From the IMG/VR virus record IMGVR_UViG_3300031749_000019, positions 1 to 35,538 of that record: a DNA stretch of 35,538 nucleotides, one strand, 5' to 3'. This stretch comes from a virus. Under the pieces are notes generated by a model. That model was not told the origin of the DNA, searched no databases, and was given only the letters and a program-made list of their open reading frames with translations. Positions 5,282-35,538 of this stretch are shown here, piece by piece. The translations under genes and the position numbers were made by a program. Each line of letters begins with the position of its first letter. Within the stretch, counting starts at the first letter, position 1.

Positions 5282-5310
5282 TTGACAAAACTTTTTACTT
5301 ATTGTAGAAT
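5282..5310 (+). promoter_or_regulatory. Strong sigma70-type promoter
   Basis: TTGACA (5282-5287), a 17-base spacer and TAGAAT (5305-5310). The expected start is near 5317, only a few bases before an AGAAC-loop hairpin and terminator, so the leader begins with the attenuator. It would drive the coiled-coil and large virion protein genes. Confidence 0.8.
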
Positions 5311-5320: not shown

Positions 5321-5365
5321 GGTAGAAAAGAACTTTCGCCGACCTTTTATACGGGTCGGTTTTTT
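5321..5365 (+). promoter_or_regulatory. Leader attenuator, AGAAC family, copy 2
   Basis: Upstream hairpin: GGU (5321-5323) pairs with GCC (5338-5340, one G-U), GAAA (5325-5328) with UUUC (5334-5337), loop AGAAC. Overlapping terminator: CCGACC (5339-5344) pairs with GGTCGG (5354-5359), then six Ts (5360-5365). The two hairpins share bases 5339-5340, so they compete. Regulation is inferred; the pairings are seen directly. Confidence 0.75.
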
Positions 5366-5393: not shown

Positions 5394-6593
5394 ATGGCAG
5401 TCATTATAGACCCATACGGAAGAGGACAGTCAACATCAATGAGTCCTGGTCAGGCAATTCTAGGAGGTTATTCAGTACAGACAATTCCACAAAATGCTAG
5501 TGTGAGTCCTTATTACGCTAAGCCAAATACTTATTATTACGCCCCTGCAGGAAGAGTTCCTGGAGCAACAAGTGTTTCTTCAGGCGGTAGTACTCCTTCC
5601 GGTGGTGGTGCTCCTTCTTCTGGCGGCGGTGGTGCTCCTTCTGGTGGTGGTGGAGGAGACGGTGGTCAACCTTCTGGTCCCTCCGTGCAAGATTTAATCA
5701 ATCAAGCCTATGAAGCTCAAATGGGAGCACTTAATACTTTAGAACAGCAACTTCCGCAACAGGCAGAAGAGGGCAAACAGTTTTGGACGCAGGAATACAA
5801 TACTCTTGCTCCTCAATATCAACAGGAACAGCAAACAAGGCTTGGTGAACTTCAAACAAGAGAGGGACAAGCTCAACAGCAACAGCAACTGGAAACCGCT
5901 AAGGTCAAACAGCTCTTAAGTGAATTGCAAAATCGTCAGGCGGCACAACTTGCCTATACTGGCGGATATGGTTCAAGCGCCAATCCCGCTATGGCTGAAG
6001 CCTTTGGCAAACAAGCCTTTTCCTCTATGGGGACACTTGCTTATCAGGGACAAAATGTCCTTGATAATATAAATGCCGAAAGAGAAAGAGTTAAAAACTT
6101 TTATTCAACCGCCTTGGCCAATCTTCAAAGTCAAGTAGATACTGCTAAACAGCAAATTCAACAGGACTTAAACGAAAAATTAAACAATATCACTCAAGCT
6201 AAAGGTGAGGCAGGAAGGGCAAAGGCTCAGGCAACCCTTGAAGCGTGGCAGAATTACACCAATCAACTTTCTCAATTAAATTTAGAAAAACTAAATTGGC
6301 AGCAAAATCTTACGGCTTGGGCTTTGGAGAAAGGAAAAAGTTTAGATGCTGCTAAAAACTTTGCCTTGCAGGCAACCGGAGGATTTAATCCAGAAGCCTA
6401 TACTTTTAATCCTAATCAACCGATGACAGTTGGACTTGGACAACAGGCCTATTACACCCCACCGATTAGAGTTTCAAGAGCAACGGGTAACTACACAGAT
6501 GAGGAAAAAAGATTAGCAGCCCAGTTGGGTTTGACACCAGATCAGGTTAGACAGGTAAGTAACGGATTGGGGAATTATCAGACTTTTCAATAA
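5394..6593 (+). CDS. Coiled-coil virion protein (possible ejection or tail protein)
   Basis: A 399-residue protein. The N-terminal third is low-complexity with Gly/Ser-rich loops (about residues 60-100). Residues 105-330 form long Gln/Ala/Leu-rich helices with no Pro, predicted coiled coil. The C-terminus includes 'YTDEEKRLAAQLGLTPDQV', a small helical motif. It sits immediately before the 1259-residue protein, as small internal or ejection proteins do in podoviruses. AAAGGAG lies 7 bases before the ATG. It is preceded by its own promoter and attenuator. No catalytic motif. Confidence 0.55.
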   Translation: MAVIIDPYGRGQSTSMSPGQAILGGYSVQTIPQNASVSPYYAKPNTYYYAPAGRVPGATSVSSGGSTPSGGGAPSSGGGGAPSGGGGGDGGQPSGPSVQDLINQAYEAQMGALNTLEQQLPQQAEEGKQFWTQEYNTLAPQYQQEQQTRLGELQTREGQAQQQQQLETAKVKQLLSELQNRQAAQLAYTGGYGSSANPAMAEAFGKQAFSSMGTLAYQGQNVLDNINAERERVKNFYSTALANLQSQVDTAKQQIQQDLNEKLNNITQAKGEAGRAKAQATLEAWQNYTNQLSQLNLEKLNWQQNLTAWALEKGKSLDAAKNFALQATGGFNPEAYTFNPNQPMTVGLGQQAYYTPPIRVSRATGNYTDEEKRLAAQLGLTPDQVRQVSNGLGNYQTFQ

Positions 6594-9600: not shown

Positions 9601-10386
9601 GCAAATGAAGAACCAATGACTTGGCAAAATAGAATCTTTAATGCTTTTTCTCCATACAGAACTTCACCAGAAAAAGAACCAGCTAAACAGTTCTATGACC
9701 TTATTACTAATACTGCCAAAATTACCGGAGATAAACTTGCTTTAGCAAAACAAGCAGCAAGAAATATTAAATTGGAGAATCAAACGGCTCCTGTTAGAGC
9801 AGAAGACTTATCCGGAGCTAAGCAAAGAGCAATGGACAAAGCATATATTGATAATATTAAGGCAAAAATAGATCAGGCTGGTAGTGGATATACAGAATAT
9901 AAGGGTTATGCAATTTATTGGGATACACAAACACAGACAGCAAAGGTAGAACGACTTGTCGATATGGAAAAAGCACAAACAACAGCTGCTTATAATTTGG
10001 CAGCCGACCAACTAAAGGATGACAAAGATTGGCAAGGATGGATTGACGCAACACAAAAGTATATAGATTATCTCAAGGAATATCAGAAAACTCTTGATCC
10101 CAAAACTGATAAGGCTGCTTATGACAACATTGAAAATACTATTAGAGACAAAGAAAGATATATAGAAAAATATAAAAGTTATGGTGGATTTGAAAAGCCG
10201 AAAAAAGTTAAAATTCCTCGCCTCAAATTAAGTTCTGTTAAACCAATTCAGTCTAAAAAGATTAAACTCGGGGGTGATTTGTCCAAATACAAATTATCGG
10301 GCTTGAAATCCAATATAAAATCTGTTAAAATACAACCAATTAAGTTAGAACAGTATCCTAACAAAAGAACTTTGCAGGGGCGTTGA
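6607..10386 (+). CDS. Very large virion protein, probably ejected with DNA
   Basis: A 1259-residue protein, the largest in the window. Residues about 80-260 are Gly/Ala-rich with several hydrophobic segments (e.g. 'AAGGIVGGVVGGTSAGIGG'), suggesting membrane insertion. Residues 430-560 are helical. Near 575-600 the segment 'LRYNSMLTSPNTHIIN' matches a motif typical of large polyvalent proteins and podovirus internal virion proteins. The Lys-rich C-terminus (1190-1259) contains repeated 'K(I/L)..lKp' units. No lytic transglycosylase Glu motif was found. There is no clear ribosome binding site. The last codons double as part of attenuator copy 4. Confidence 0.6.
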   Translation: MAISKLKSLQDFLGNAVNTVSNYFSPTRPPSFVSPEAGSQSNNTASNYSPSPFVQDLAQIQGFIESPKQLNIVPTINPFKSTILGNIGNAVVNIPGGLVNTISQGITAPLFDVGQMIGRPFSGRQYNYNEMKNIGRLGMQRAGIVNPQAAQQQGTKYGFKQVAGNVAETVLPIASAYVPTGVTNIAKEGVAKSLGSTILQGAKEGAIQGAGYGLVSGLVGSREEQNNAKYALNILGNMAAGGIVGGVVGGTSAGIGGLIELTKRPRSVETQLRDSMGRWTEGETPIKPKGMTNAQWNFQLEFNKKYGRNPYTPVYPKDLEKAIKYEAGKKQIGLSVRDINKDINPLGETKTIAPENKLPKPEVPPTSEILPQGHQGNGLNPPSSSQISSSGEIINPTDPFYNINRLNISNEAKSQLKEKITGEFKPEFEKVTGEKMSADEIVKRAQSASDELIQTIGREKTAELGAAQLRLRQTIAQMVDSGKVDKDLLEKMRADKSFSANTARLQQQRTINADPKSPNGRLLQTMLKNILDVNEDLDGILAKAKGVDFNDPKQATEFYRQFIKPKAGDWIDKLRYNSMLTSPNTHIINATSNWQGTGLITPIQKTIEGSIDKILSVLNPSRERTRFTGEGLAYARGYYNPQTVKAAFKNMWSVLSGERISEYPDTRNIPLTTGGVGRVVENALDIGGRALEAVDQLFMTLTKGGLESSYKYRLGKGVKIAPSAEEEASNLLFRGKLTEPGQGWISNLIGAGGEAVKKVAHGDNATFRWMAKLTLPFVNIGTNLAKSGFEYNPVTGAFNLIGNSDKIAQAAKMLIGAGVVATAVPFALSDRLTFKLPSGKRGDAAREAGMLDYAIKIPTPKGEQWVQYTKMHPAIAWQLATVAALTDAIKNRKITEDVGQKIADGIWSVMQFGLDQTYFKNVSDFMSGVQGNVERFASIPSNYVSQFIPFRAFASWLNRIIDVYQRKPDTDASFITQSLQQIQSQLPILSKNVPVRTNANEEPMTWQNRIFNAFSPYRTSPEKEPAKQFYDLITNTAKITGDKLALAKQAARNIKLENQTAPVRAEDLSGAKQRAMDKAYIDNIKAKIDQAGSGYTEYKGYAIYWDTQTQTAKVERLVDMEKAQTTAAYNLAADQLKDDKDWQGWIDATQKYIDYLKEYQKTLDPKTDKAAYDNIENTIRDKERYIEKYKSYGGFEKPKKVKIPRLKLSSVKPIQSKKIKLGGDLSKYKLSGLKSNIKSVKIQPIKLEQYPNKRTLQGR
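10303..10331 (+). promoter_or_regulatory. Promoter inside the 3' end of the large virion gene
   Basis: TTGAAA (10303-10308), a 17-base spacer and TAAAAT (10326-10331), all within coding sequence. The predicted start, near 10338, would give a leader containing the attenuator at 10357-10405 and then the fibre gene. Confidence 0.5.
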
Positions 10387-10405
10387 AAGATTGACGCCCT
10401 TTTTT
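10357..10405 (+). promoter_or_regulatory. Leader attenuator, AGAAC family, copy 4 (overlaps a coding end)
   Basis: Upstream hairpin: CCU (10357-10359) with AGG (10376-10378), CAAA (10362-10365) with UUUG (10371-10374), loop AGAAC. Terminator: AGGGGCGU (10376-10383) with ACGCCCUU (10394-10401), eight pairs with one G-U, and six Ts (10400-10405). The shared AGG makes the hairpins exclusive. The stop codon of the large virion gene (10384-10386) lies in the terminator loop. Confidence 0.7.
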
Positions 10406-10425: not shown

Positions 10426-11505
10426 ATGTCAACTATAAGTAAAATTTTACCAGCACCGCCAAATAATTTTTCGACCACCTTGTCGGCAGATATTACTGCC
10501 GCCGCTCTTTCTATCGGTTTAAACAGTATTACCGGATTAGGGAGCGAGGGGGTAGGGGTAATTTACAAGAAAAAAACAGACGGAACCCCCGACGAGACCA
10601 CCGTTGAGTTTGTCCATTGGACAGGTCTTGGGACAAATACAATTACTTTGACCGACACGGGAGATAGGGGAATTTCAGGTTCTTACAATGGTGCTCAAGC
10701 TCACTCCAACGGCGATACTTTTGAGGTTTGGGTTCATTCAAGCTATTATCCACGGGATTTTGCTTTAGTTGAACATGCGGCTGACGGGACTCACGACCCA
10801 ACCAAAGTAACTACCAGAACTGCTTTTGAAACAGAACATAAAACCGATAATACTCACGATTCAACCAAAGTGGCAATGCTGGCGGGAGAGCAGACCCTTA
10901 CAGGGCAAAAGACTTTTAGTGGGGGAATTAAAACAGATACGATTGCTGAAGTAACGACTGGGGCGAAGACAACAATTAGCAATGGGATAAAGACCGACAC
11001 GGTAGATGAAAAAACTGCCGATGCTGGAGTAACGGTTGATGGTTGTTTAATTAAAGATGGAAATGTGGCAAAAGCAACGATTTTAAGCACAACCGCTAAA
11101 GCAGCGGCTTATGTAAGCGCAAGTCAAACAATTTCTTCTAACACTTGGACTAAGGTTAATTTTGATACTGAACACTATGACCCAGGCAATAATTTTGATA
11201 CTACCAACAAAAGATTTACTGCGCCAGTAGCAGGCTATTATTTGATTACTTCTTTAATCGGTTATAGTAGTGTCCAAGACCAAAAAAGGTATATATCGGC
11301 TATTTACCAGAATGGCTCAAGAATTAAGACATTTTATACAGTAGCAAGTGGAACGACTAACGCTTATTGTTCTCTTTCGGCAATTGTTTATCTGGATGCT
11401 AATGACTATGTTGAAATTTGGACTTATCACGATGCGACAGCGAGCCAGTCTTTGGATGGACAAAGTTTGTTTTCTGATTTTTCAGTTCATTTGTTGTCGG
11501 TATAA
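10426..11505 (+). CDS. Tail fibre protein with C1q-like C-terminal head
   Basis: A 359-residue protein. Residues 1-120 form a beta-rich attachment domain; 120-215 contain repeated 'THD.TKV', 'KTD' and 'T(S/G)..TKT' units like a fibrous shaft. The last 140 residues ('ASQTISSNTWTKVNFDTE', then 'RFTAPVAGYYLITS', ending 'SDFSVHLL') have the strand order and key residues of C1q/TNF-like jelly rolls, where F-x-A/v-P-x-a-G-x-Y is the hallmark. Such heads bind receptors in phage fibres. SD CGGAGG is 6 bases upstream. Host receptor binding is the likely role. Confidence 0.75.
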   Translation: MSTISKILPAPPNNFSTTLSADITAAALSIGLNSITGLGSEGVGVIYKKKTDGTPDETTVEFVHWTGLGTNTITLTDTGDRGISGSYNGAQAHSNGDTFEVWVHSSYYPRDFALVEHAADGTHDPTKVTTRTAFETEHKTDNTHDSTKVAMLAGEQTLTGQKTFSGGIKTDTIAEVTTGAKTTISNGIKTDTVDEKTADAGVTVDGCLIKDGNVAKATILSTTAKAAAYVSASQTISSNTWTKVNFDTEHYDPGNNFDTTNKRFTAPVAGYYLITSLIGYSSVQDQKRYISAIYQNGSRIKTFYTVASGTTNAYCSLSAIVYLDANDYVEIWTYHDATASQSLDGQSLFSDFSVHLLSV

Positions 11506-22461: not shown

Positions 22462-22862
22462 AACAAGAACAGACGGTAAAAGACCTGCTGGAAAATACTG
22501 GAAAGCCCATAAGCCGGGCAATGCTTGATAATGGTTATTCACCAGCGACAGCCAAGAACCCGTGTGAACTTACAGAATCAAAAGGCTGGAAAGAACTTCT
22601 TGAGAAGTATTTGCCGGATGAGAAGCTTCTTAAAAAGCATGATGAAGCACTAGAAGCAAAGAAGTGGAATGATTTTACCGGAGAGAGAGAAGAGGATCAC
22701 TCCATCAGATTAAAAGCAATTGAGTTAGGATACAAACTTAAAGGCAAACTAAATGAAGGAAGTGTCAATATCTCTGGTGAAAAAGTGATAGCGATACTTG
22801 GAGGAATAACGAATGACATACATAATAACAACGGCGACTCGCAAAATTCTGAAACTAAATAA
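22449..22862 (+). CDS. terS: Terminase small subunit
   Basis: A 137-residue protein. Residues 1-50 form a helix-turn-helix-like DNA-recognition part ('ISRAMLDNGYSPATAKNP'), residues 52-105 a helical oligomerisation part ending 'HSIRLKAIELGYKLKGKL', a pattern frequent in small terminases. It directly precedes and overlaps the large subunit by 50 bases. It recognises packaging sites on phage DNA and stimulates the large subunit. No ribosome binding site; coupling from the upstream frame is likely. Confidence 0.8.
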   Translation: MPTLKQEQTVKDLLENTGKPISRAMLDNGYSPATAKNPCELTESKGWKELLEKYLPDEKLLKKHDEALEAKKWNDFTGEREEDHSIRLKAIELGYKLKGKLNEGSVNISGEKVIAILGGITNDIHNNNGDSQNSETK

Positions 22863-23997
22863 GCGTATTCGGGGAGTTTCCGGAGGAACTTCAGCTTCTA
22901 AAACCATCTCAATTCTTCTTTGGTTAATTGATCGGGCCCAGTCGGCAAAAGAAAAAGAGATAATTTCGGTAGTTTCAGAATCTATGCCACATCTTCGGAA
23001 GGGTGCAATGAGAGACTTTTTAGAGATAATGCAACAGCACCATTACTTCAAAGACGACAGGTGGGAGAAAACCAATTCTACTTATCGCTTTGAGTCCGGT
23101 TCGATTATTGAATTCTTTGGGGTTGAGAATTGGGAAAAGGTCAAAGGAGCAAGAAGGGATATTTTGTTTATTAATGAGGCAAACCATATTTCTTTTGAAA
23201 CATACAATCAGCTTGAGGTAAGGACAAAGAAGATAGTTTGGTTAGATTGGAACCCAGAGAGCGAGTTTTGGTGGTATGAGGAAGTTTTACCAAAGCAGGA
23301 TGTTGATTTTATTACTTTAACTTACAAAGACAATGAGGCGCTTGATCCCCAAATTGTTGCTTCGATTGAATCAAGAAAAGAGAACAAAAACTGGTTTCGG
23401 GTCTATGGAGAAGGGCAACTTGGAGAAGTAGAAAACAAGATTTACAAAGACTGGCAAATAATAGACGAAATTCCTCATGAGGCAAGACTTGAAAGGTATG
23501 GTTTGGATTTCGGTTATACAGCTGATCCCACAGCGATTGTGGCGGTTTATTATTACAACGGCGGCTATATTTTAGATGAGATAACTTATCAAAATGGACT
23601 TTCTAACAAACAAATAGCGGATATTTTATTGAACATTCCTTCAGCTTTAGTTATCGCAGATGCGGCTGAGCCCAAAAGTATCGATGAGGTAAGAGGTTAT
23701 GGGGTGAATATTCTACCTTCGCAAAAAGGTCAAGGAAGTGTTCTTCAGGGAATTCAGTATGTTCAACAGCAGAGGATATCAGTTACCAAGCGAAGCCTCA
23801 ATCTCTTAAAAGAATATCGAAATTATCTTTGGCAGACAGACAAAGGTGGGAAAACAATAAATGAGCCAGGAGTAATCTTTAACCATGCGATGGATGCTGT
23901 TCGTTATGCGCTAAATAGTTTAACTTCTAATCAAAGTAATTATCAAGAATATGTCAAAAAGAACCAAGGAGTCCGAGATCAAGACCTCGGACTATAA
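22813..23997 (+). CDS. terL: Terminase large subunit (PBSX/Terminase_3 type)
   Basis: A 394-residue packaging motor and nuclease. ATPase: deviant Walker A GGTSASKT (24-31) and Walker B ILFINE (117-122) with catalytic Glu122. Nuclease: GLDFGYTADPTA (about 228-240), IADAAEP (about 285) and NHAMDAVRY (near 360), the RNase H-like acidic residues. The order and length fit PBSX/SPP1-like terminases, which often cut headful-style. It overlaps the small subunit and the next gene by about 50 bases each. The first residues before 'RGVSGGTSASKT' are short, as in this family. Confidence 0.95.
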   Translation: MTYIITTATRKILKLNKRIRGVSGGTSASKTISILLWLIDRAQSAKEKEIISVVSESMPHLRKGAMRDFLEIMQQHHYFKDDRWEKTNSTYRFESGSIIEFFGVENWEKVKGARRDILFINEANHISFETYNQLEVRTKKIVWLDWNPESEFWWYEEVLPKQDVDFITLTYKDNEALDPQIVASIESRKENKNWFRVYGEGQLGEVENKIYKDWQIIDEIPHEARLERYGLDFGYTADPTAIVAVYYYNGGYILDEITYQNGLSNKQIADILLNIPSALVIADAAEPKSIDEVRGYGVNILPSQKGQGSVLQGIQYVQQQRISVTKRSLNLLKEYRNYLWQTDKGGKTINEPGVIFNHAMDAVRYALNSLTSNQSNYQEYVKKNQGVRDQDLGL

Positions 23998-24277
23998 AGA
24001 ATTAACCGACTATTGGACACAAAATAAGGAGAATGAGGATTTGGCTATTAAGTGGCTAGGGATATTATTCCCTGAATTGGCGGGATTTCGTGAATTGCTA
24101 CTGAAGTTGGATATTTCTTTGGACGATATTTTTGATTATCTTTATAACCTGAGGTTGGTAAAAACCCACGGCTATGGGAGTATCAATACAACAGTTTTCG
24201 AAGGGAATATTACCAAGATTGAAGGACTAATTAGAACAATTAAGAAACAAGAGACTCTTGAAAAAAAGCAAGAGTAG
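23951..24277 (+). CDS. Small head-module protein, unknown
   Basis: A 108-residue acidic helical protein overlapping the terminase 3' end by 47 bases, with no ribosome binding site. It lies between the terminase and the portal. 'KTHGYGSINTTVFEGNITKIEG' in the second half resembles short phage proteins of unknown role. Its last codons contain the -35 of the portal promoter. Confidence 0.6.
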   Translation: MSKRTKESEIKTSDYKELTDYWTQNKENEDLAIKWLGILFPELAGFRELLLKLDISLDDIFDYLYNLRLVKTHGYGSINTTVFEGNITKIEGLIRTIKKQETLEKKQE

Positions 24278-24285
24278 TGTATAAT
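24258..24285 (+). promoter_or_regulatory. Portal operon promoter
   Basis: TTGAAA (24258-24263), a 16-base spacer, TATAAT (24280-24285). The start near 24292 coincides with the first stem strand of the attenuator. Confidence 0.75.
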
Positions 24286-24290
24286 AAAGA

Positions 24291-24336
24291 CGGTTCAAAA
24301 GAACTTTGACCGCAAGATATTACTTGCGGTTTTTTT
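24291..24336 (+). promoter_or_regulatory. Leader attenuator, AGAAC family, copy 3 (before the portal)
   Basis: Upstream hairpin: CGGU (24291-24294) with ACCG (24309-24312), CAAA (24296-24299) with UUUG (24305-24308), loop AGAAC. Terminator: ACCGCAAG (24309-24316) with CUUGCGGU (24323-24330), then seven Ts (24330-24336). They share ACCG. The portal ATG follows five bases later without a ribosome binding site. Confidence 0.8.
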
Positions 24337-24340
24337 ATTT

Positions 24341-26359
24341 ATGGCAGACAAAGTAAACAAAAAAGAAGAAAACAAGTTGGCCTACACAGACCTTCTAAAG
24401 GAAGTAGTTGAGCATTATAACGAAGGTTTTGCAACTCTTCAAACTCGCATAACCCACAAGGATCAAGGATTTAACGAGTATGATAATTTATTCCGTTCGT
24501 ATATTCAGAAAGACAAATGGCCGTTTAATTCAAGGATTTTTGTTCCTCTTTCCTTCCAATCGGTTTTTTCAAAAGGAACAAGACAATTAATCGGCAAGAT
24601 AAAAGGCAGGCTGGTGGCAACTCAATATGGCAACGAATTAGCTTCAAGAATAGGGACAGAGCTTCTGTCAGCCCAATACGATGATCATGATTACTTTTTT
24701 GAAGAGCCATTAGTTTCAAAATGGTTTAGGATGGATCAAAATGCAAGAAAATATGGAGCGTCTTTTGGTTTAGTGGCTTGGCGGCGGGAGGTTGACCATA
24801 ATGGCAAGGTTGTTTTTGACGGTCCAACATTTGAGCCAATAGACAAAAGCAAAATAATGTTTCCCGATGGCGTTTCTTCAATTTCTGATTCTGAATGGGT
24901 GATAATTGAGAGAACGGCAAGAATAGACGAACTTGAAAGGATAAATGAAATTAGTGTTGCCAAGAATGGTCAGCCCGCATATCTTCAATCGGCAATAGAT
25001 AAGTTAAAAGAGATGAAGAACAATCAGGTTTCAAATCAAAATCCCTCGACTAACACTAGGATTAGAAATTTAACAGACAGAAGAAAAGGTTTTAGAATTT
25101 TGACTGAATACCGAAAGGACGTTTGGATTACTTGGTGCCCAGACGTTGGCAGTGAAGAAGATGCCCCCGGACTTATTTTAAGAGTGATTGAAAATCCATA
25201 CAATCACGGACTTATTCCAATTATCCGGCTTGTTTATATTCCGATTGATGATGATATTTACGGGGTTTCGGAGCTTGAGCCAGTTAGAAGCGAACAGAAG
25301 GCGACCAATGCTTTGGTTTCAGGTTTCATTGAATCGGTTTCAACCGAACTTTACCCAATAATCAAAGGACATCCGACTAATGTTGACTGGAAGACGATTG
25401 AATTCAAACCAAGAGCTGCGTGGTTGATGAATAACCCCTCTGCTGATGTGGTGAGGCTTGAAGGAGCAATTACTTTTACCAGAAACTTTGTAGAAGCGTA
25501 TAGGCTTCTTAAATCTTCTTTCGCCGAAGGAATGGGCGAAACAACTGCTGATGTTTCTAATATGGCGGCGCTGACGGCCGACAAGACAGCTACCGAAGTT
25601 AGGGACACCGCTAGTTTGCGGACAGCTAGAGATAATCTTAATAAACTTTTCTTGTCCGCCGCTATTACTAAGATGTATTCACTTTGGTGGAGTATGGATC
25701 AGCAATTCTTGACCGACAAAAAAGTTATCAAAGTTGCCGGCAAGGAAGCGATTGAGTATTTTGTTAATGAAGGATTGCACGACTATACTCTTAACGATGA
25801 GGGTTTTGACTTTATTAACAGCTTTATGGAAGAAAATCCGGGAATGGACTTTGAAACTGCCTATGAAACTTTGAGGACTGATGGAAAACTTGAACAATTT
25901 GCCGTTCCTATTTATCCGGTAAAGGTGGGGAACGAGGTTTTGCCTAAACTCCAGCTTGAGGTAGACGGTAAAAGCGGGTTTTTGTCGGTTGAGAACAAAG
26001 ATTTGACTGGTCAATACAAATTCTCGGTTGACTTAAATACTATTGGTGCACCGAATACTGAAAAGGAAGCGGCCAATCTTAACCAGTTTGCTCAACAATT
26101 GGCAGAGTTGCAGGCAAAAGGACTTTTGGGAGATTACAAAGTCAAATTTAAGGAATTGTATGAGACACTTGGTGAGAAGTTGCAAATTCACGGAGTTGAT
26201 AATTTCTTTGAGAAAGTAGTACAACAACCGCAATCGCCTATGCCACCACAAGGACAAGGAATGCCCCCGCAGGGAGAGATGATCCCGCCAGAAGCCACAC
26301 AGGGCGCTCAACCGCCTATTACTCCGCAGACCTTAATGGGAGGAATGCCAAATGGCTAA
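24341..26359 (+). CDS. Portal protein
   Basis: A 672-residue protein in the portal position between terminase and scaffold. The middle part has 'YGASFGLVAWRRE' and 'GPTFEPIDKSKIMFPD', with further portal-like segments 'GLIPIIRLVYIPIDDDIYGVS' and 'ADVSNMAALTADKTATEV', and a Pro/Gln/Gly-rich tail (about 630-672). These are typical of large P22/podovirus-type and SU10-like portals, which form the twelve-fold DNA channel. No ribosome binding site; the ATG abuts the U-tract of the attenuator, so initiation must be non-SD. Confidence 0.82.
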   Translation: MADKVNKKEENKLAYTDLLKEVVEHYNEGFATLQTRITHKDQGFNEYDNLFRSYIQKDKWPFNSRIFVPLSFQSVFSKGTRQLIGKIKGRLVATQYGNELASRIGTELLSAQYDDHDYFFEEPLVSKWFRMDQNARKYGASFGLVAWRREVDHNGKVVFDGPTFEPIDKSKIMFPDGVSSISDSEWVIIERTARIDELERINEISVAKNGQPAYLQSAIDKLKEMKNNQVSNQNPSTNTRIRNLTDRRKGFRILTEYRKDVWITWCPDVGSEEDAPGLILRVIENPYNHGLIPIIRLVYIPIDDDIYGVSELEPVRSEQKATNALVSGFIESVSTELYPIIKGHPTNVDWKTIEFKPRAAWLMNNPSADVVRLEGAITFTRNFVEAYRLLKSSFAEGMGETTADVSNMAALTADKTATEVRDTASLRTARDNLNKLFLSAAITKMYSLWWSMDQQFLTDKKVIKVAGKEAIEYFVNEGLHDYTLNDEGFDFINSFMEENPGMDFETAYETLRTDGKLEQFAVPIYPVKVGNEVLPKLQLEVDGKSGFLSVENKDLTGQYKFSVDLNTIGAPNTEKEAANLNQFAQQLAELQAKGLLGDYKVKFKELYETLGEKLQIHGVDNFFEKVVQQPQSPMPPQGQGMPPQGEMIPPEATQGAQPPITPQTLMGGMPNG

Positions 26360-26660: not shown

Positions 26661-26856
26661 TATAAAATTTGAAAAAGTTAAAGCTGGAGATAAAGTTAAA
26701 GAAGTCGAGACTTGGTATCTTGGACAAGGGACGGAAATTCATAATAGCGTTGGTTGTGATCATTATTGGATACAGGTTACGGGAACACAGGTACAATGTA
26801 AAAAATGTGGATTAGGTTTGTTTGGCCACGCTGTTGACGGAAAACTAAAAAAGTGA
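26638..26856 (+). CDS. Small zinc-ribbon protein
   Basis: A 72-residue protein with GCDHYW (about 39-44), then CKKC at 54-57 and a late GH; a plausible Cys/His zinc site. GGAAGG upstream. It overlaps the previous gene by 23 bases. The promoter for the scaffold gene is inside its last codons. Found in head modules as small 'decoration-like' or unknown proteins. Confidence 0.6.
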   Translation: MPPSTKPDIKFEKVKAGDKVKEVETWYLGQGTEIHNSVGCDHYWIQVTGTQVQCKKCGLGLFGHAVDGKLKK

Positions 26857-26862
26857 TATAAG
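26834..26862 (+). promoter_or_regulatory. Scaffold operon promoter
   Basis: TTGACG (26834-26839), 17 bases, TATAAG (26857-26862) with an extended TGA before it. The transcript would begin at strand 1 of the attenuator. Confidence 0.75.
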
Positions 26863-26866: not shown

Positions 26867-26945
26867 TTGTAAATAGTTTTTAGAGAACCTAGAAGCCATT
26901 TACAAGTTTGCGAGGAAACTCGTGGATTTGTAAATGGCTTTTTTT
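26867..26945 (+). promoter_or_regulatory. Three-strand attenuator before the scaffold gene
   Basis: Strand 1 TTGTAAAT (26867-26874) and strand 3 TTGTAAAT (26928-26935) are identical; each can pair with strand 2 ATTTACAA (26898-26905). Pairing 2:3 extends to a perfect 12-base-pair terminator (26894-26905 with 26928-26939) followed by seven Ts; its loop holds a GAAA-capped mini-hairpin (26910-26921). Pairing 1:2 would prevent the terminator. Confidence 0.75.
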
Positions 26946-27000: not shown

Positions 27001-27822
27001 ATGGATGAAGAAAATTTAAAGGGAGTAGAAGGAGAAGAGAAAACTCCTTCAGAGGAACAACCCGCCTCAGAAGAAAAAACCACTCAGAAAACTGAGGATG
27101 TTCTTTCACAATCGGATTTCCCAGAGGATGCAGACAAGCAGAAACAAGCATTTTACTCGATGAGGAAGAAGATTGAAGAGTTGGAAAGTAAACTCTCGCA
27201 ACAGGAACAAGATGCAGACCTGATCAATATGGCGAGAGGCACTTCCGAAATACCTACGGGTTATGTACCCCAGCCTTCTACACCCGGAGTAATGTTTGAT
27301 GAAAGCGATCCTGCTACTCAAGCGTTTTTGAGCGAGGCGCAAAGAGCGAAGCAAGAGGCTATGGCGGCAAGACAAGCAGCCATGGCGGCTCAGGCGCAAA
27401 TGGAAGACTTTGAGGCTTGGCAAAAATACCCAGAATTAAATCCAAAGTCGCCCAACAAAAACAAGGCTTTTATCGATGATGTCCAAAAGGAATTTTTGGC
27501 AGAACGATTAAAAGCAATCCAGCAAGGAAGACAACCAAAAAGGTTAGTCGAGGTAGCTGAGCAAGTTCAAAAACACTATGAGGAAATTCGGAACCAAGCA
27601 AAAGAACAGGCGCTTTCTGAATCCAAAGCTACTATGGAACAAAAGGAAGCAGCCAGCCTTGAAAGTCGGGGAACAAAAGTTGATTTGACAGGTAGTGCTG
27701 ACGAATCACGAATCGAGGAGTTGAGAGCAAGAGTAAGGAGAGGCGATACAAACGCTCTAACCGAGCTTAATAAGTTATCGGAACCTTACATTCAATCAAT
27801 TCCTGATGAAGCCCCCTTTTAA
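27001..27822 (+). CDS. Scaffolding protein
   Basis: A 273-residue Glu/Gln/Lys-rich, highly helical, soluble protein with no cysteine and no membrane segment, located between the portal and the capsid gene. The N-terminal 50 residues are acidic and disordered; residues 55-80 and 115-145 (Ala/Gln-rich) are coiled coil; the C-terminus is basic then acidic. This is the normal composition of internal scaffolds that template the procapsid and leave or are cleaved. GGAGG lies 16 bases upstream, unusually far. Its own promoter and attenuator precede it. Confidence 0.8.
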   Translation: MDEENLKGVEGEEKTPSEEQPASEEKTTQKTEDVLSQSDFPEDADKQKQAFYSMRKKIEELESKLSQQEQDADLINMARGTSEIPTGYVPQPSTPGVMFDESDPATQAFLSEAQRAKQEAMAARQAAMAAQAQMEDFEAWQKYPELNPKSPNKNKAFIDDVQKEFLAERLKAIQQGRQPKRLVEVAEQVQKHYEEIRNQAKEQALSESKATMEQKEAASLESRGTKVDLTGSADESRIEELRARVRRGDTNALTELNKLSEPYIQSIPDEAPF

Positions 27823-28084: not shown

Positions 28085-29444
28085 ATGGCGCAATTAGCTG
28101 GTGTTCATCAGACCTTAAAATAATAGGGTCCGCTGGGAGCAATCCCTTCGAAAAAATAGCTCTTTGAAATCGGTGAAAGTCTGAACGAATTGATAATCAT
28201 CTCAATTTATGATATACCAGCAGTGGTATGCGTAAAGAAGAGAAGATTACAATGTCGAAGATAACGCCGAGCCAAGATATACGACTTGCTTGGCTGGCAG
28301 GAATAATAGACGGAGAAGGAAGTATCTCAGTTCCCTCTTTTGTTCTTTATCCTGCTGGCACAAGTTCGCTATCGGAGCGAATAATCCCAATTATAAAAAT
28401 GGAAAATGGACGGGGAGGAAAAGACGTATATCGGGTGTAACGACTGAGTAAGAGCTTCTTCAAATACCGATGTGAAGATAAAGCCACAGTCTGGTCTATA
28501 TAGAAATATATAGAGGCTAGCAGAAATGACTAGCCCCGTTCATAAGAACGAGTAACAACAACGACATGGATACGACCAGAAGAGAGGATCTTTTGGATCG
28601 TATTATTGATATCTCTCCTGACAAAAACTATTTGTCCACCATCATGGGGACGGTTGAGGCAACTCAAACGTTGCATGAGTGGACAGAATATTATCAGGCA
28701 CGTCCAACCTCAAACAGCACAAGCGGTGAGGGAGATGAAAATTCTTTTAGCGACCTTTCTGTTCCGACCAAGAAAAACAACATTTGCCAAATTATAAAGG
28801 AAGTGTTTGCTGTTTCTCGAACGGACATTAAAGTCAATAAGGTTTCTCCTAAAGATGCTTATGCTCGTGAGATGGGTTGGGCCATGAGGAGATATAAGAA
28901 TAAGGAAGAGTATGCCATTTTGAGAGGCACAAAAGCCTCTGGTTCATCGGGTGTTGCTAGAGAAATGAACGGGATTATTGCCACGGTTATAACCGATGGT
29001 TTATATACTGCTCGTGCATCTGGTACATCCATGTCTGAAGAACGCTTTAGATACATGATGAAGGCGTCCTGGGACAAGACCGATGAACAGCTTGTAGACT
29101 TGCTTTTGACAACGGGAGCAAGAAAACAAGACTTTGGCAGGTTCTTTACAACTTCAACACCGAAGACTATTCCTGCAGACGACAAGAGACTGGTTCAAGC
29201 CTTGGATGTCATTGAGACAGACTTTGGCTCGCTGGTTGAAATTCGTGCTCATAAGGATATGCCAGATGGCGCAGTTTTGGCTGTTAGAAAAGATTTGCTC
29301 AAGAAAGCATATCTTGATACACCTCAACACGTACCGAATGGTATTACCGGCGATAACAGGAAAGGTCATATCGTTGGCGAGTTAACAGTTCAAGTAGATA
29401 CGGCGAGAGCAATGGTCTACGAGACTGGATTCAATTTAGCTTAA
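28085..29444 (+). CDS. Major capsid protein (SU10/DUF5309-like), split by a group I intron
   Basis: Exon 1 is 28085-28115 (MAQLAGVHQT plus one base) and exon 2 is 28564-29444. Joining them gives codon TAC and a 303-residue protein, in frame. The sequence 'REDLLDRIIDISP' near residue 20 and 'SWDKTDEQLVDLL', 'VRKDLLKKAYLDTP' and the short C-terminus after 'YETGFNLA' fit the HK97-fold SU10/DUF5309 capsid family. Exon 2 alone would begin at an internal Met and lose the N-terminus. No ribosome binding site is adjacent. It is the shell protein, with scaffold upstream and a terminator (29467-29530) downstream. Confidence 0.85.
28116..28563 (+). ncRNA. Group I intron in the capsid gene
   Basis: About 448 nt. 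P1: exon GACCT (28111-28115) pairs with GGGTC (28126-28130), ending in the required U-G at the splice site. P2-like: GGGA-GCAA-TCCC (28135-28146). P3: ATCGGT (28169-28174) with ACCGAT (28466-28471). P7: GACTG (28442-28446) with CAGTC (28487-28491). Peripheral hairpins at 28188-28207, 28214-28229, 28495-28514 (GAAA loop), 28515-28535 and 28537-28550. The intron ends with G28563. The ordering P3, P7, P3', P7' is that of group I; subgroup is not assigned. Confidence 0.88.
28228..28440 (+). pseudogene. Truncated LAGLIDADG homing endonuclease in the intron
   Basis: A 70-residue frame with one LAGLIDADG motif (LAWLAGIIDGEGSI, about residues 23-36), then only about 34 more residues ending 'GGKDVYRV'. 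Normal single-motif enzymes are well over 100 residues and need the downstream DNA-binding sheet, so this is almost certainly an inactive remnant. The end abuts the P7 strand of the intron, suggesting an internal deletion that kept the ribozyme core. The start overlaps the P6-like hairpin. Confidence 0.8.
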
Positions 29445-30102: not shown

Positions 30103-30443
30103 TAGACAAAACAGGAATACCACGACCGAAATGGGCAGTTGATTTGGTGGATAATTTTTTGGCAAAAGTAAGGTCTCGGCCAATGTGGGAAATGATAGAT
30201 TTTATTGTTTCCGTTTATATTACAAAGCACCCCGAATACTTAAATCAACCAAGGACTTCTTACATCAATAAGTTTGCTTCAACTAAAGACAAGAGTATGA
30301 GAAAGTTGCTCACAATCCCCGTTGATCTGAAAGACACAATTGACTGGTTTTACAAGGAAGATATTAAAAATATTGGTGAAGTAAAGTTTTGGCGAAAGTT
30401 TGCACAAAGATATCCTAACCTTTCGCCAGCGGAGAAGATATGA
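30090..30443 (+). CDS. Unknown protein, 117 aa
   Basis: A 117-residue helical, basic protein overlapping the HNH gene by 13 bases and the glycosyltransferase gene by four. 'RPKWAVDLVDNFLAKVRSRPMW' forms an amphipathic helix; no known domain. It could be a glycosylation cassette helper or a leftover of the HNH insertion. Confidence 0.5.
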   Translation: MEEIIDKTGIPRPKWAVDLVDNFLAKVRSRPMWEMIDFIVSVYITKHPEYLNQPRTSYINKFASTKDKSMRKLLTIPVDLKDTIDWFYKEDIKNIGEVKFWRKFAQRYPNLSPAEKI

Positions 30444-32743
30444 ACAAGCTAGCGTTAAATATGATTATAAAAGACGATACGGAGGCGGAGATTTTGTATC
30501 GGTGTTTGTCTTCAATTGCTCAATATGTAGACGGTATTTTTATCACAATTACCAACAAACCCCACGACAAGATTAAAAAGATTATTGAGGCTTTTGGTGG
30601 CAGAGTGTCTTTTTATCAATGGGATAAGTCTTTTGAAAGAGCAAGAAATTATGCTTTAGACCAAGTTCCCGAAGAATATAATTATATTGTTTGGACAGAC
30701 GCCGACGACGTTTGGGAAAATGCCAAGATGTTGCCGGCAATGGTTGATTTGATGGATAAACAGGGGATAACTGCTATTTATTTTGATTATAATTATCAAA
30801 TCAATCCCAAAACAAAAGAAGTTGAGATTGTTCACCCAAGAGAAAGAATAATCAAAAGAGGTTATTACCGCTGGAAGGGAAATCTTCACGAAACCCTTAT
30901 TCCGCAAAGAGAGGTCAACAATGCTTACTTTAAAGACATTAAGGTTAATCACTATCCGCTTCCTACAGCTGGCGAGACAAATTTGACAAGAAACCTAGAA
31001 ATACTAGAGGCGACCTATAAAGAAGAAGGAGATAAACACGATCCTCGAACACTTTACTATCTCGCTAGAAATCTTTTTGATGTAAGAGAATTAGACAGGG
31101 CGGAAAAGTTATTTATTGATTACTTGCAAAGTTCGGGTTGGGACGAGGAAAGAGCAATGGCGGCCAATTACTTGGGCTTGATTTATCTTTTTAAAAGAGA
31201 TTTTGACAAAGCTAAGGCTAGTTTTTTACAAGCAATCTCCGAGAAACCTAATTTCCCCACTTGGTATGTTAATTTAGCTTATCTTCACGCCCTGCAAGGA
31301 AAATTTGAAGAAGCAGTGCATTATGCTAGATTGTTTGTGGCAACTCCTCAACCTGATACTTCAATGGTTTTAATTCCGGTTGACGACAAGATGCGATATT
31401 ACGAAACAATCTTTTTGATTGCGATGGGAAAAAGGAAGTTAAAGGAGGCCAAAGATGCCTGCAAAGCAATCTTGGAGATTTTCCCCGACGATGAGGATTA
31501 CAAAAAGAAACTGGAGGGGCTGGAAAGGCTGGACGAGTTGATTGAGGTAACTAAAGGGGTTGATTATGTTGCTAAAGAGTTAGACAAACAGAAAGAAACA
31601 GAGAAGATTGGTCTTCTTTTGCACGCCTTACCTTCAACAATTGAAGACAATGCGGTGATTGAGCAGTTAAAACAAAAGTATTTACAGCCTACTGTATGGC
31701 CAGAGAAGTCAATTGTTTATTTAGCTGGCAAGACAATTGAGGAGTGGACGCCAGAGAGCCTTAAAACGGGTTTAGGGGGCTCAGAGACGGCAATTGTGCA
31801 GTTATCTAAGGAATGGGTTAAGTTGGGTTATAAAGTAACGGTTTTTGGCAATTGTGGGGCCAAAGAGGGTATGTATGATGGCGTGGATTATAAAAATTAC
31901 TATCGTTTCAATAAGTATGATACTTTTGATACTTTGATTATTTGGAGAGCACCGTGGGAGTTGGATTTTAAGTTCAAGGCAAAAAGAATTTGGTTGGACT
32001 GCCACGATGTCTTAAATCCTTTAGAATTTACACAAGAGAGGATTGCTAATGTCGATAAAATCTTTGTGAAGTCGAGGTTTCATCGTGATTTTATTCCTCA
32101 CGTGCCAGACGATAAAATAGTTATAATTCCGAATGGGTTTGATAAAGAGTTGTGCCGTTATAACAAAGCTAAGCGTAATCCCTACTCACTGATTTATTCT
32201 TCAAGTTATGATCGAGGGCTTGAGCAAATGCTTACTTGGGGTTGGCCGATTATTAAAAAAGAAATCCCAGAAGCCGAACTTCATATTTATTATGGTTGGA
32301 ATTTGTTTGACGCCGTTCATAGAAACAACCCCGAACGGATGATGTGGAAGAAAAAGATGATTGAGTTAATGAGTCAGGACGGAGTTTTTGAACACGGCAG
32401 GATAGGTCATGAAAAACTGCTTGAGGAAAAAAGCAAATCGTCAATTCATTATTATGTAACGAATTTTGAAGAAATCGATTGTATTTCGATAAGGGAGTCT
32501 GCGGCAGTTGGTTGCGTACCAGTAACTTCAAACTATGCCGCCTTGAAAGAAAAAGATTATGTGATTAAGATTAACGGCGACCCTAATCTGCAAAAGACAC
32601 ACGAAGATGCCGCCAGAGAGATTGTGTGGCTTCTTAAGACCAAAGAAATGGAAAAATACAGACAGGAGTTCAAGGAAAGGGCGAGAAAGGAAAGTTGGCA
32701 GGAGCAGGCAAAATTATGGATATCAGTTTTGAAAACAAATTAG
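30440..32743 (+). CDS. Trifunctional glycosyltransferase: GT-A + TPR + GT-B
   Basis: A 767-residue fusion. Residues 1-190: GT2-like GT-A domain with DADD (87-90), the metal/nucleotide-sugar site, and 'YYRWKGNLHETL' near 146. Residues about 195-360: tetratricopeptide-like helical repeats ('AMAANYLGLIYLFKRDFDKA', 'YVNLAYLHALQGKFEEA'). Residues 415-767: GT4-like GT-B domain with 'LGGSETAIVQLSKEW' and late 'ESAAVGCVPVTS'. Fused synthases of this kind add sugars stepwise, here likely to a virion or host surface target. It is the first of the cassette, coupled to the upstream gene by ATGA overlap. Confidence 0.85.
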   Translation: MNKLALNMIIKDDTEAEILYRCLSSIAQYVDGIFITITNKPHDKIKKIIEAFGGRVSFYQWDKSFERARNYALDQVPEEYNYIVWTDADDVWENAKMLPAMVDLMDKQGITAIYFDYNYQINPKTKEVEIVHPRERIIKRGYYRWKGNLHETLIPQREVNNAYFKDIKVNHYPLPTAGETNLTRNLEILEATYKEEGDKHDPRTLYYLARNLFDVRELDRAEKLFIDYLQSSGWDEERAMAANYLGLIYLFKRDFDKAKASFLQAISEKPNFPTWYVNLAYLHALQGKFEEAVHYARLFVATPQPDTSMVLIPVDDKMRYYETIFLIAMGKRKLKEAKDACKAILEIFPDDEDYKKKLEGLERLDELIEVTKGVDYVAKELDKQKETEKIGLLLHALPSTIEDNAVIEQLKQKYLQPTVWPEKSIVYLAGKTIEEWTPESLKTGLGGSETAIVQLSKEWVKLGYKVTVFGNCGAKEGMYDGVDYKNYYRFNKYDTFDTLIIWRAPWELDFKFKAKRIWLDCHDVLNPLEFTQERIANVDKIFVKSRFHRDFIPHVPDDKIVIIPNGFDKELCRYNKAKRNPYSLIYSSSYDRGLEQMLTWGWPIIKKEIPEAELHIYYGWNLFDAVHRNNPERMMWKKKMIELMSQDGVFEHGRIGHEKLLEEKSKSSIHYYVTNFEEIDCISIRESAAVGCVPVTSNYAALKEKDYVIKINGDPNLQKTHEDAAREIVWLLKTKEMEKYRQEFKERARKESWQEQAKLWISVLKTN

Positions 32744-33258
32744 AGAATGGGCATATCGAGAGGATTGTTCCTAATATCAGCCCGCAGAAATACGTTGATG
32801 AACATATTGAGAGGTATAACTATGCCAAGGGCTTAATGTATGGTAAAACCCTTGATGCTGCCTGTGGTGTTGGGTATGGTTCAAAGATATTAAGTGAAAA
32901 GTGCGATAAGGTAATAGCGGTTGATTATTCACAAGAAGCGATAGATTATGCCTCAAAACATTATGGTGATCCTAAAATTTCTTTTGAGTGTCAAGATCTT
33001 GATCGTTGGGATATTCCGATCGTCGATTGTGTTGTCTCGTTTGAAACGTTAGAACACCTAAGAGATCCGCAGAGGTTTTTACAGCAGGTTTTTGACAGGT
33101 CGAGATTGTTTGTTTTCTCGCTTCCTCTTAATTCCCCGATAACCGAATTTCATTTGCGGAAATTTGACAATATCGATGAAGTGAAACAATTTATAGGAAA
33201 AGAATTTGAATACTTTATACAAAAAGACGTTTATGTTGTGGGAGTATGGAGAAAATAA
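32716..33258 (+). CDS. SAM-dependent class I methyltransferase
   Basis: A 180-residue protein from the ATG at 32716; it overlaps the upstream stop. Motif I is LDAACGVGYGS (about 38-48), followed by 'VIAVDYSQEAIDYA' (motif II, acidic Asp), 'VDCVVSFETLEHL' (motif IV/post). A Methyltransf_11/25-type fold. In a glycosyltransferase cluster it probably methylates a sugar or lipid-linked intermediate, capping the glycan. GGAG lies 12 bases upstream. A DNA-methylation role is unlikely without a target-recognition domain. Confidence 0.8.
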   Translation: MDISFENKLENGHIERIVPNISPQKYVDEHIERYNYAKGLMYGKTLDAACGVGYGSKILSEKCDKVIAVDYSQEAIDYASKHYGDPKISFECQDLDRWDIPIVDCVVSFETLEHLRDPQRFLQQVFDRSRLFVFSLPLNSPITEFHLRKFDNIDEVKQFIGKEFEYFIQKDVYVVGVWRK

Positions 33259-33929: not shown

Positions 33930-34603
33930 TAATACTGTATCGGATTTGTCCTCACAACAGCACCAAAAGTCCATTCTTCCCCGATAATAAGTTAAAGATG
34001 GTTGAGGTATGCTTGAAGTCTTTTGTTGACGGATTTGGCGATATTAAACCTAAAATTATCTTTATTTTAGACACTTGTCCGCCAGAATATAAAGAGTTAA
34101 TTGAAAGAGTTGTGCCTTTTGAAAAAGAATTCATTGAAGGAAACAATTTAGAAAATTTGGGTTCATTTAGAAAGCAGGTTGAGATCGCTTGCGGTTTAGA
34201 TGATTATGTTTTGTTTCAAGAAGATGATTATTTGTATGTGCCGGATGTTGGGGAAAAATTACAAAAAGCGGTTGAGAAATTTGATTTTGTTACTCCGCAG
34301 GACGAATATCTTTATTATTTTAACGAGCCAAGACATATCGGAAAATATGAGATTAAGGTTATCGCCGACCACCATTTTAGGGAGGTTAATTCAACAACCC
34401 TAACTTTTGCCTGCCATTCTAAACTGATTAAGGAAAATAAAGATATAATTTATAAACACGAGATTTGGGATTTTCCGATGTGGCAGGAAATAAGAGGAAA
34501 AGATTATAGAATTTGGTGTCCTATTCCTACTTTTGCCACTCACCTTGCTGATAATTTAGCACCTTGTGTAGACTGGGGAGAAGTATGCCAAAAATATCAG
34601 TAA
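33926..34603 (+). CDS. Glycosyltransferase-like protein (GT-A fold)
   Basis: A 225-residue protein from the ATG at 33926, with GGGGAGGAG just upstream. 'IIFILDTCPPEYKE' (about 45-58) and 'YVLFQEDDYLYVPD' (about 95-108, EDD as the DxD-type metal site) match GT-A chemistry, as does 'NSTTLTFACHSKL' near 160. It overlaps the next gene by 19 bases. Similarity is weaker than for the neighbours. Acceptor unknown. Confidence 0.7.
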   Translation: MIILYRICPHNSTKSPFFPDNKLKMVEVCLKSFVDGFGDIKPKIIFILDTCPPEYKELIERVVPFEKEFIEGNNLENLGSFRKQVEIACGLDDYVLFQEDDYLYVPDVGEKLQKAVEKFDFVTPQDEYLYYFNEPRHIGKYEIKVIADHHFREVNSTTLTFACHSKLIKENKDIIYKHEIWDFPMWQEIRGKDYRIWCPIPTFATHLADNLAPCVDWGEVCQKYQ

Positions 34604-35307
34604 TAACACCGACAATTTATCCTGAAAGGTTAGAGATTGTTAGAAAAGCACTCTCTAACCAAACATTTAAGGATTTTGAGTGGCTTATTGGCTCTCCGTT
34701 TGACCCTCAGATAAAAGAAGTCAGATGGATTGTAGATGATTTTAAGGGTGGTTTTTGGAGTTTAAATCGTGTATATAATCGTTTGTTCAAAGAAGCCAGC
34801 GGCGAGCTTTTGGTGAGCCTACAGGATAATATTTGGGTGCCACCTACTGGGTTGGAGAAGTTTTGGATTGATTATGATGCTACAAGAGGAATAATCAGCG
34901 GAGTGGGCGATCAATATGCAAAACTTGATGAATTTGGCAAGCCAATTGTAAAAGTTTGGGAAGATCCGAGAAAAACAGATAAATATGGCAGTTTTTATGA
35001 GTGTAACTGGAACGATGCCGAATTTAATTGGTGTGCTATTCCCAGACAGGCAGTTTTTGATGTTGGCGGAATGGACGAAAATTTAGACTTTTTAGGATAC
35101 GGGGGCGACCAGCTTCAACTTTGTGAAAGGCTTAATGACTTAGGTTGTAAATTTTACTTAGACCAAACTAATGAGAGTTTTACTTTAAGGCACGGAAGAA
35201 AAGAAGGCTGGGATGAAAATCATGTTTTGCATAATGGAGCTTATGATAAGAGAAAGGCAGAATTAAAAGAAAAAGGTCTTTGGCCGGTCTTGAATTATTT
35301 AAAATAA
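34585..35307 (+). CDS. Family 2 glycosyltransferase
   Basis: A 240-residue GT-A protein from the ATG at 34585 (GGGGAG is 4 bases upstream). 'ISVITPTIYPERLEIVRKAL' opens the fold; 'LLVSLQDNIWVPPTGLEKF' (about 80-98) carries an unusual QDN in place of DxD; 'GGMDENLDFLGYGGDQLQLCERL' (about 170-192) is the acceptor motif. It is the last gene of the cassette; a promoter and attenuator follow within its final codons and just downstream. If QDN cannot bind metal, activity could be altered. Confidence 0.8.
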   Translation: MPKISVITPTIYPERLEIVRKALSNQTFKDFEWLIGSPFDPQIKEVRWIVDDFKGGFWSLNRVYNRLFKEASGELLVSLQDNIWVPPTGLEKFWIDYDATRGIISGVGDQYAKLDEFGKPIVKVWEDPRKTDKYGSFYECNWNDAEFNWCAIPRQAVFDVGGMDENLDFLGYGGDQLQLCERLNDLGCKFYLDQTNESFTLRHGRKEGWDENHVLHNGAYDKRKAELKEKGLWPVLNYLK

Positions 35308-35317
35308 GTGATATAAT
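35290..35317 (+). promoter_or_regulatory. Promoter for the small-protein/connector operon
   Basis: TTGAAT (35290-35295), 16 bases, extended -10 TGATATAAT (35309-35317). The start near 35324 is just before the attenuator. Confidence 0.75.
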
Positions 35318-35325: not shown

Positions 35326-35369
35326 GGTTAGAAAAGAACTTTCACCGCCTTTTGTTGAGGCGGTTTTTT
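35326..35369 (+). promoter_or_regulatory. Leader attenuator, AGAAC family, copy 1
   Basis: Upstream hairpin: GGU (35326-35328) with ACC (35344-35346), GAAA (35331-35334) with UUUC (35340-35343), loop AGAAC. Terminator: ACCGCC (35344-35349) with GGCGGT (35359-35364), followed by six Ts. ACC is shared. Directly after the U-tract is a four-codon frame (35371-35385) that ends in the AAGGTGA ribosome binding site of the next gene. Confidence 0.8.
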
Positions 35370-35390: not shown

Positions 35391-35538
35391 ATGGCTTTTA
35401 AATATGTTCAAAGGAAATCTGCTAAAGCAAAGAAAAGAGCGGGTAAAAGTTTTGTGGCTAGTGGCAAAAAACCAGTATTAGGACAAGGGGGTAGATTTAA
35501 GGCTCTGAAGGGAGCATTGGCTAAAAAGGGAGCCTCTA
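35391..35538 (+). CDS. Small basic phage protein, N-terminal part (continues at base 1)
   Basis: The ATG at 35391 follows AAGGTGA by 6 bases and encodes MAFKYVQ before entering the 127-base overlap; the protein continues at base 1 and ends at 216, giving 78 residues in all. It is the first gene of an operon that leads into the connector and stopper. Confidence 0.85.
   Translation, partial: MAFKYVQRKSAKAKKRAGKSFVASGKKPVLGQGGRFKALKGALAKKGAS
35412..35538. repeat. Second copy of the 127-base end overlap
   Basis: This is the same sequence as bases 1-127. It continues in frame the gene that begins at 35391, so joining the two ends restores one uninterrupted reading frame. That supports circularity over a tandem duplication. 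Confidence 0.93.

Follow-up and report, generated by a model that had tools for sequence, protein, structure and literature searches.

A probable small RNA switch with a recurrent AGAAC loop before five gene sets of a bacterial virus

One small RNA switch is repeated before five gene sets, mostly virion genes, of the bacterial virus analyzed here, and matched base-pair changes in related viruses show that the shape of its hairpin is under selection. The window, by which we mean the whole 35,538-base stretch of IMG/VR record IMGVR_UViG_3300031749_000019, contains five leaders (A to E), each consisting of a sigma70-type promoter, a 5'-end hairpin with the pentaloop AGAAC and an overlapping intrinsic terminator, followed by a gene (Table 1). 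These leaders precede the portal gene, the gene set with the major head protein and further genes on the same side of the genome. We consider it likely, with a probability of about 0.7, that they are five units of an RNA switch in which transcription terminates by default and factor-dependent read-through is achieved via the AGAAC hairpin and its outer stem.

Table 1. Positions of the leader elements, the genes that follow them and the candidate factor in the window
Feature	Position	Strand	Details
Leader A promoter	35290..35317	+	TTGAAT-16-TATAAT, TG before -10
Leader A antiterminator hairpin	35326..35346	+	GGU-UA-GAAA[AGAAC]UUUC-ACC; copy at 35333
Leader A intrinsic terminator	35344..35364	+	ACCGCC/GGCGGT; first 3 nt are the outer 3' arm
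Leader A gene start	35391..35538	+	78-aa basic protein, spans record ends (127-base terminal repeat)
Leader B promoter	5282..5310	+	TTGACA-17-TAGAAT
Leader B antiterminator hairpin	5321..5340	+	GGU-A-GAAA[AGAAC]UUUC-GCC; copy at 5327; one outer U-G pair
Leader B intrinsic terminator	5338..5360	+	CCGACC/GGTCGG
Leader B first gene	5394..6593	+	399 aa
Leader C promoter, weak	10346-10351 (-10 box)	+	TAGAAC
Leader C antiterminator hairpin	10356..10380	+	CCU-AA-CAAA[AGAAC]UUUG-C-AGG; copy at 10364; outer CCU/AGG or UCCU/GGGG
Leader C intrinsic terminator	10376..10401	+	AGGGGCGT/ACGCCCTT
Leader C first gene	10426..11505	+	359 aa
Candidate trans-acting factor	23951-24277	+	108-aa protein, upstream of leader D
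Leader D promoter	24258..24285	+	TTGAAA-16-TATAAT
Leader D antiterminator hairpin	24291..24312	+	CGGU-U-CAAA[AGAAC]UUUG-ACCG; copy at 24298; initially noted site
Leader D intrinsic terminator	24308..24331	+	ACCGCAAG/CTTGCGGT
Leader D gene, portal protein	24341..26359	+	672 aa
Leader E promoter	26834..26862	+	TTGACG-17-TATAAG, TG before -10
Leader E antiterminator hairpin	26868..26904	+	UGUAAAU-A-GUUUUUAG[AGAAC]CUAGAAGC-C-AUUUACA; loop 26884-26888
Leader E intrinsic terminator, long	26893..26940	+	
Leader E first gene	27001..27822	+	273 aa; possible scaffold by position
Major head protein, within leader E gene set	28566-29444	+	

The elements of a leader follow one order: promoter, outer 5' arm, unpaired base(s), inner helix, pentaloop, inner 3' arm and outer 3' arm, the last of which also provides the first bases of the intrinsic terminator, with translation starting soon after the U-tract. 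The promoter box (TATAAT or TAGAAT) lies 11-24 nt from the loop in most leaders, and the outer 5' arm, which pairs over 3-8 bp, begins approximately at the predicted RNA start. One or two unpaired bases usually separate the outer arm from the inner helix, which is usually 4 bp long, and the unpaired base about 4 bp under the loop is most often a purine. The distance from loop to terminator is nearly constant across leaders. The geometry itself varies, with a 2-nt or 2x1 bulge in leaders A and C, no bulge in the homologous leader G004_D and a mismatch in G003_D.

The original prediction had named four copies with compensating changes in their stems. Those four copies are real, and all of the stem and terminator strings quoted for them are present in the sequence; the total, however, is five. 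Leader E had been overlooked because its stem, GUUUUUAG/CUAGAAGC, is wholly unlike the NAAA/UUUN of leaders A to D; its loop is again AGAAC, and around that loop it has no sequence in common with the other leaders. The string AAAGAACTTT occurs 5 times in the window versus 0.60 expected in shuffled sequence (0/100 shuffles reach 5), and the fifth exact match, at 13586, lies inside an ORF and has no such hairpin or terminator. By themselves, leaders A to D are modest evidence for selection on the structure, given that an A-U pair recurs unchanged at three of the four inner positions. Their single-sequence folding z-scores were only -0.56 to -1.79, and that of leader E was -3.59. Leader C (10346-10404) overlaps the 3' end of ORF 6607-10386, and many of its hairpin bases are also protein-coding. 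In leader D (24331-24341), the start codon stands right after the terminator U-tract with no evident Shine-Dalgarno sequence.

With the homologous leaders found in related phages, the total set comprised 22 leaders from eight phage or contig lineages, with the AGAAC loop present in 18 of the 22 while the stems vary. The other four loops are AGAAA, AAATA and, twice, AAGAA, two of them standing at gene positions where other phages have AGAAC. Five relatives with 55-85% identity came from a portal search, and an alignment search contributed four contigs at 50-52% identity that have one common portal leader sequence; the leaders of G005 repeat those of G004. At the portal gene, AGAAC was present in all six distinct phages (G000, G002, G004, G001, G003 and G032) with differing stems: CAAA/UUUG, GAAA/UUUC, UAAA/UUUG, UCAA/UUGA, GA/UC and CAGG/CUUG. 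Before the next gene set it was present in four of six, and the bulged geometry was kept in the two others (AGAAA in G001 and AAATA in G003). Additional AGAAC leaders were found in G002 (two), G004 (one), G032 (one) and the MAG contig L187, where the leader lies upstream of the terminase. In L187 (4482-4560), the AGAAC leader is followed by two similar tandem terminators before a gene upstream of the terminase. G016, which has a related terminase, has two AAGAA-loop hairpins before terminators; in its record (L155, minus strand, at ~7761 and ~13557) CCGAAGAACGG occurs twice before terminators, and AAGAA appears to be a related but different recognition loop.

Other searches delimited this set. 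A capsid search in IMG/VR gave 8 loci, of which 7 were in records already in the set and the eighth was L220 (36% capsid identity), while a portal search in genome contigs confirmed 0 of 63 candidate stretches. A scan that requires overlap with the terminator lists 16 leaders. The IMG/VR pattern scan (TATAAT, gap, AAAGAACTTT, gap, CC) returned 91 stretches, of which only those of G002 passed the hairpin-plus-terminator test; we discarded the rest as chance. In L182 (31% portal identity), no AGAAC leader was seen at the portal or the next gene set, and another repeated element, TAACTTGCAAACCTA, stands before both (2650-2664 and 5086-5100). In several terminase relatives (L008, L009, L011, L017, L023, L027 and L029), a start codon is immediately preceded by a promoter-like box and an intrinsic terminator but no AGAAC, and these may be leaders that use a different recognition element. 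The promoter match, summed over the 22 leaders, was 211, compared with 165.2 on average and at most 177 in 200 shuffles; the promoters of leader C, G004_C, G016_1 and L187 were no better than shuffled sequence.

Covariation on the leaders of related phages, the check proposed with the original prediction, was measured by pair counts against shuffles and slid partners in place of R-scape, and on that measure the prediction was supported. Alignment A4 holds 20 of the 22 leaders (13 distinct), the two G016 leaders being omitted for their other loop register. In its inner helix, 50 of 52 cells were paired (96.2% versus 65.1% in shuffles), the covariation score was 1.071 versus 0.375, a value that 0/500 shuffles reached, and 20 cells were doubly changed versus 5.8 in shuffles. 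Both sides had changed in 4/4 pairs, a measure that is weak alone given that 65/500 shuffles also attained it. Sliding the partner by one column lowered pairing to 46-56%. Alignment A7 covers the whole geometry and holds 11 of the 22 leaders, namely those in which a single 5' base is unpaired 4 bp beneath the loop, and it therefore leans to that geometry. Here, both sides had changed in 8/8 pairs, 95.5% of cells were paired, 27 cells were doubly changed versus 8.1 expected, and the score of 1.016 versus 0.301 was again reached by 0/500 shuffles. The claim that pairing is kept while sequence varies was borne out. Given that the stems change with pairing kept while AGAAC stays, the selected object is RNA.

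Exchanging 5' and 3' halves among leaders abolished the structure. When the 5' halves of the 18 AGAAC leaders were permuted with composition and loop kept (5000 permutations), the native total of 146 bp compared with a mean of 60.0 and a maximum of 107, and inner and outer stems formed together natively in 15/18 leaders versus a mean of 3.4 and a maximum of 11. An outer stem of at least 3 bp was present natively in 21/22 leaders versus 10.6 on average and 18 at most in 10000 permutations. The summed outer pairs of the 12 portal and next-position leaders were less striking, their value being reached by 55/10000 permutations. Several leaders had been found via an inner-stem criterion, so a fairer test is given by the outer stem and by those leaders that were located through their gene position, and the 22 leaders are related by kinship and are not independent samples. 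The loop was also specific: in the sequences scanned, AGAAC before a terminator gave 19 matches, 13 of them with a -10 box of at least 5/6, versus 0 to 6 matches for each of the 19 remaining permutations of those letters, no more than 2 of these matches having a box of that quality. This count missed L187 and G002_E, and three of the 19 AGAAC matches (L049 8779, L051 15468 and L076) look like chance, with 2-bp stems and a poor -10. A homologous leader whose stem is broken in full without compensation was not found among the 22. The nearest were G003_D, which has a 2-bp inner stem and a U.U mismatch and keeps GGU/ACC and AGAAC; G004_D, in which one continuous stem runs without a bulge; and G032_E, whose outer run is just 2 bp and then a mismatch.

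Whole-leader folds placed the terminator in the minimum-energy structure of most complete leaders, and these structures often held the terminator together with the inner hairpin, the outer stem being absent. The isolated hairpin is weak in leaders A to D (-2.6 to -5.7 kcal/mol) and reaches -12.1 kcal/mol in leader E; for G032_D, the minimum fold has a different register with a 4-nt loop. Given that the terminator is favored and the hairpin is weak, the outer stem and not the inner hairpin would be the switch, and a stabilizing input would be needed. The suggestion that two exclusive hairpins are kept at once therefore stands for the outer stem (3-4 bp in leaders A to D), which excludes the terminator, but not for the inner AGAAC hairpin, which can coexist with it. 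In the mechanism that we propose, RNA polymerase would start at the sigma70-type promoter a few bases upstream and make the hairpin at once, and the outer stem would take the first 3-8 bases of the terminator 5' arm. By default, the terminator would win because it is much more stable, leaving a short RNA of ~45 nt (in leader E, ~70-80 nt). The AGAAC pentaloop, together with the unpaired base some 4 bp beneath it, would be bound by a trans-acting factor, which is probably an RNA-binding protein that the phage encodes and produces earlier in infection. The bound hairpin would have its outer stem stabilized and the terminator foot removed, and transcription would continue into the genes, presumably late in infection.

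We considered other explanations for these leaders. The AGAAC hairpin could be the loading site of a processive antitermination factor that modifies RNA polymerase, in which case the outer stem would be minor and farther terminators would also be ignored. A 5'-end hairpin beside a terminator is where hairpin-loaded factors are placed, as described for LoaP/dfn in PMC12691694, the inner AGAAC hairpin persists in the folds while the terminator forms, and several of the transcription units are long. However, a pure loading site needs neither selection on the outer stem nor a 3' arm that doubles as the terminator 5' arm, both of which are observed here, and among the window proteins that were scanned, Pfam returned nothing NusG-like; we regard this explanation as unlikely. 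A DNA-bound antiterminator of the Q/AlpA kind acting at the promoters, with AGAAC as part of a DNA site or incidental, would fit the succession of promoter, very early terminator and gene, which is the layout of Q/AlpA-controlled operons (PMC7969949). We consider it very improbable, given that the stems change as pairs with only five bases fixed, whereas a DNA site needs no pairing, and that leader E lacks the shared sequence around the loop. Moreover, the AlpA site is placed between -10 and -35 in PMC7969949, and the constant part here is downstream of the start.

The balance of structures could also be set without a protein, by a small RNA, a metabolite or RNA polymerase kinetics alone. No binding protein was identified among the window proteins scanned, and the upstream hairpin, being made first, could briefly block the terminator. 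Against this, the combination of a constant five-base loop and an unpaired base some 4 bp beneath it is typical of protein-recognition hairpins and suggests a bound protein; operators of the MS2/PP7 type are built in this way, with a constant loop and an unpaired base below. The element is also too small for the usual metabolite pocket, and the window had no Rfam riboswitch match at the gathering threshold, so that we judge protein-free sensing to be improbable, if slightly less so than a DNA-bound factor. Hardly credible is the notion that these are ordinary terminators of upstream operons, which a promoter and a hairpin happen to precede. They do stand directly after upstream genes as well (leader C, for example, lies inside the end of ORF 6607-10386), but the covariation, the constancy of AGAAC, the promoter enrichment and the nearly fixed loop-terminator distance all speak against it.

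Returning to factor-dependent read-through, we tentatively propose, at somewhat less than even odds, that a single protein encoded by the phage and belonging to an undescribed RNA-binding type, possibly the 108-aa protein encoded upstream of leader D, reads the bulged AGAAC hairpin at about five promoters and opens all of the terminators together, so that antitermination at the RNA level turns on the virion genes, in phages that probably infect Patescibacteria. The 108-aa protein is present in all six phages with AGAAC portal leaders and went undetected both in L182 and in the nine further terminase-related records with which it was compared, and by this co-occurrence it is a candidate for the trans-acting factor. 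The candidate is weakened by G016, one of those nine, which has AAGAA hairpins and no 108-aa homologue by tblastn, and the protein could equally be a packaging protein. Its predicted structure was poor (mean pLDDT 63), and the model had no fold match in the PDB. The family DUF2292 (E = 0.075) fell below the curated cut-off and is not claimed, and the literature on DUF2292/YezD yielded nothing useful. The window proteins scanned with Pfam contained no known antitermination domain, and no PHROGs antiterminator was found. In L011, L017, L023, L027 and L029, small proteins with a common pattern and basic ends occupy the position of the 108-aa protein, between the terminase and the next leader.

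In classical phage antitermination, the factor is recruited either by a single DNA site (Q) or by nut RNA (N). In this phage, each of several transcription units has its own RNA switch, with one recognition loop common to all, which would amount to an RNA-based regulon. The leaders fall within the general class of terminator/antiterminator leaders: a stem shares bases with the terminator 5' arm, and its pairing is kept by compensatory change. In the RAT elements of BglG, SacY and LicT, a protein-stabilized hairpin overlaps the adjacent intrinsic terminator and disables it, according to PMC9981650 and PMC3369931. The phage switch resembles these in that the antiterminator overlaps the terminator foot, a comparison that concerns the overlap design only. 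It differs from them in its hairpin of ~20-24 nt in most copies, its single AGAAC pentaloop and 5' bulge, its place within a few bases of the predicted start, its five copies before phage gene sets and the absence of a sugar-system context. No Pfam match to a PRD/CAT-RBD protein was found among the window proteins scanned, and a host-encoded one is possible. ANTAR RNAs (EutV, NasR, AmiR) also have a small hairpin with conserved loop bases beside, and exclusive with, a terminator. Their two hairpins carry hexaloops with A at position 1 and G at position 4 (PMC3369931), whereas the phage leader is one hairpin with a pentaloop and so lacks the ANTAR signature, and no ANTAR protein was found in the window.

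The LoaP targets dfn and mln share with the phage leader a short leader hairpin upstream of terminators that is read by an antitermination factor, as we propose here. Their UNCG-type tetraloop and leader of several hundred nt, as given in PMC12691694, differ from the AGAAC loop and terminator overlap seen here, and the UNCG signature is absent from all 22 leaders. Q and AlpA load onto promoter DNA sites (PMC7969949), and their operons likewise place an intrinsic terminator after the promoter and before phage or lysis genes, with a factor needed for read-through, as would be the case here; the constrained element of the phage leader is instead base-paired RNA downstream of the -10 box. The window had 0 matches in Rfam 15 at the gathering threshold, and leader D gave only weak, sub-gathering matches. 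In the literature searched, from which subscription papers were mostly absent, no description of the AGAAC leader element was found.

The first and last 127 bases of the window (1-127 and 35412-35538) are identical, so the record probably represents a complete genome, either circular or terminally redundant. Relatives of the terminase at 58-66% identity occur in variously labeled MAGs, one of them a Woesebacteria contig, and the genome of L187 appears to be in the same phylum as the genome of that contig, given that the two phylum searches returned the same set of genomes. These sequence affiliations make a Patescibacteria host likely, with the caveat that small contigs can be mis-binned. The leader pattern showed no enrichment across 379 genomes of the probable host phylum (that of G036), with 1 match and 1 in the control, and had 0 matches in 96 genomes of the phylum of G037; because the pattern requires both TATAAT and GG...CC outer arms, host elements that have diverged would escape it. 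Given this lack of enrichment, the element looks phage-specific. The compact hairpin could serve as bait for an RNA-binding protein in phages of a hard-to-culture bacterial group, and as a short, modular terminator switch it is open to study in a laboratory strain. The terminase (22813-23997) is close (63-72%) to that of many other phages and not to that of the phages with common portal and head genes, and a predicted module swap lies between ORF 22813 and ORF 23951. After the head genes, positions 30440-35307 of the window hold a run of glycosyltransferase, TPR and methyltransferase genes.
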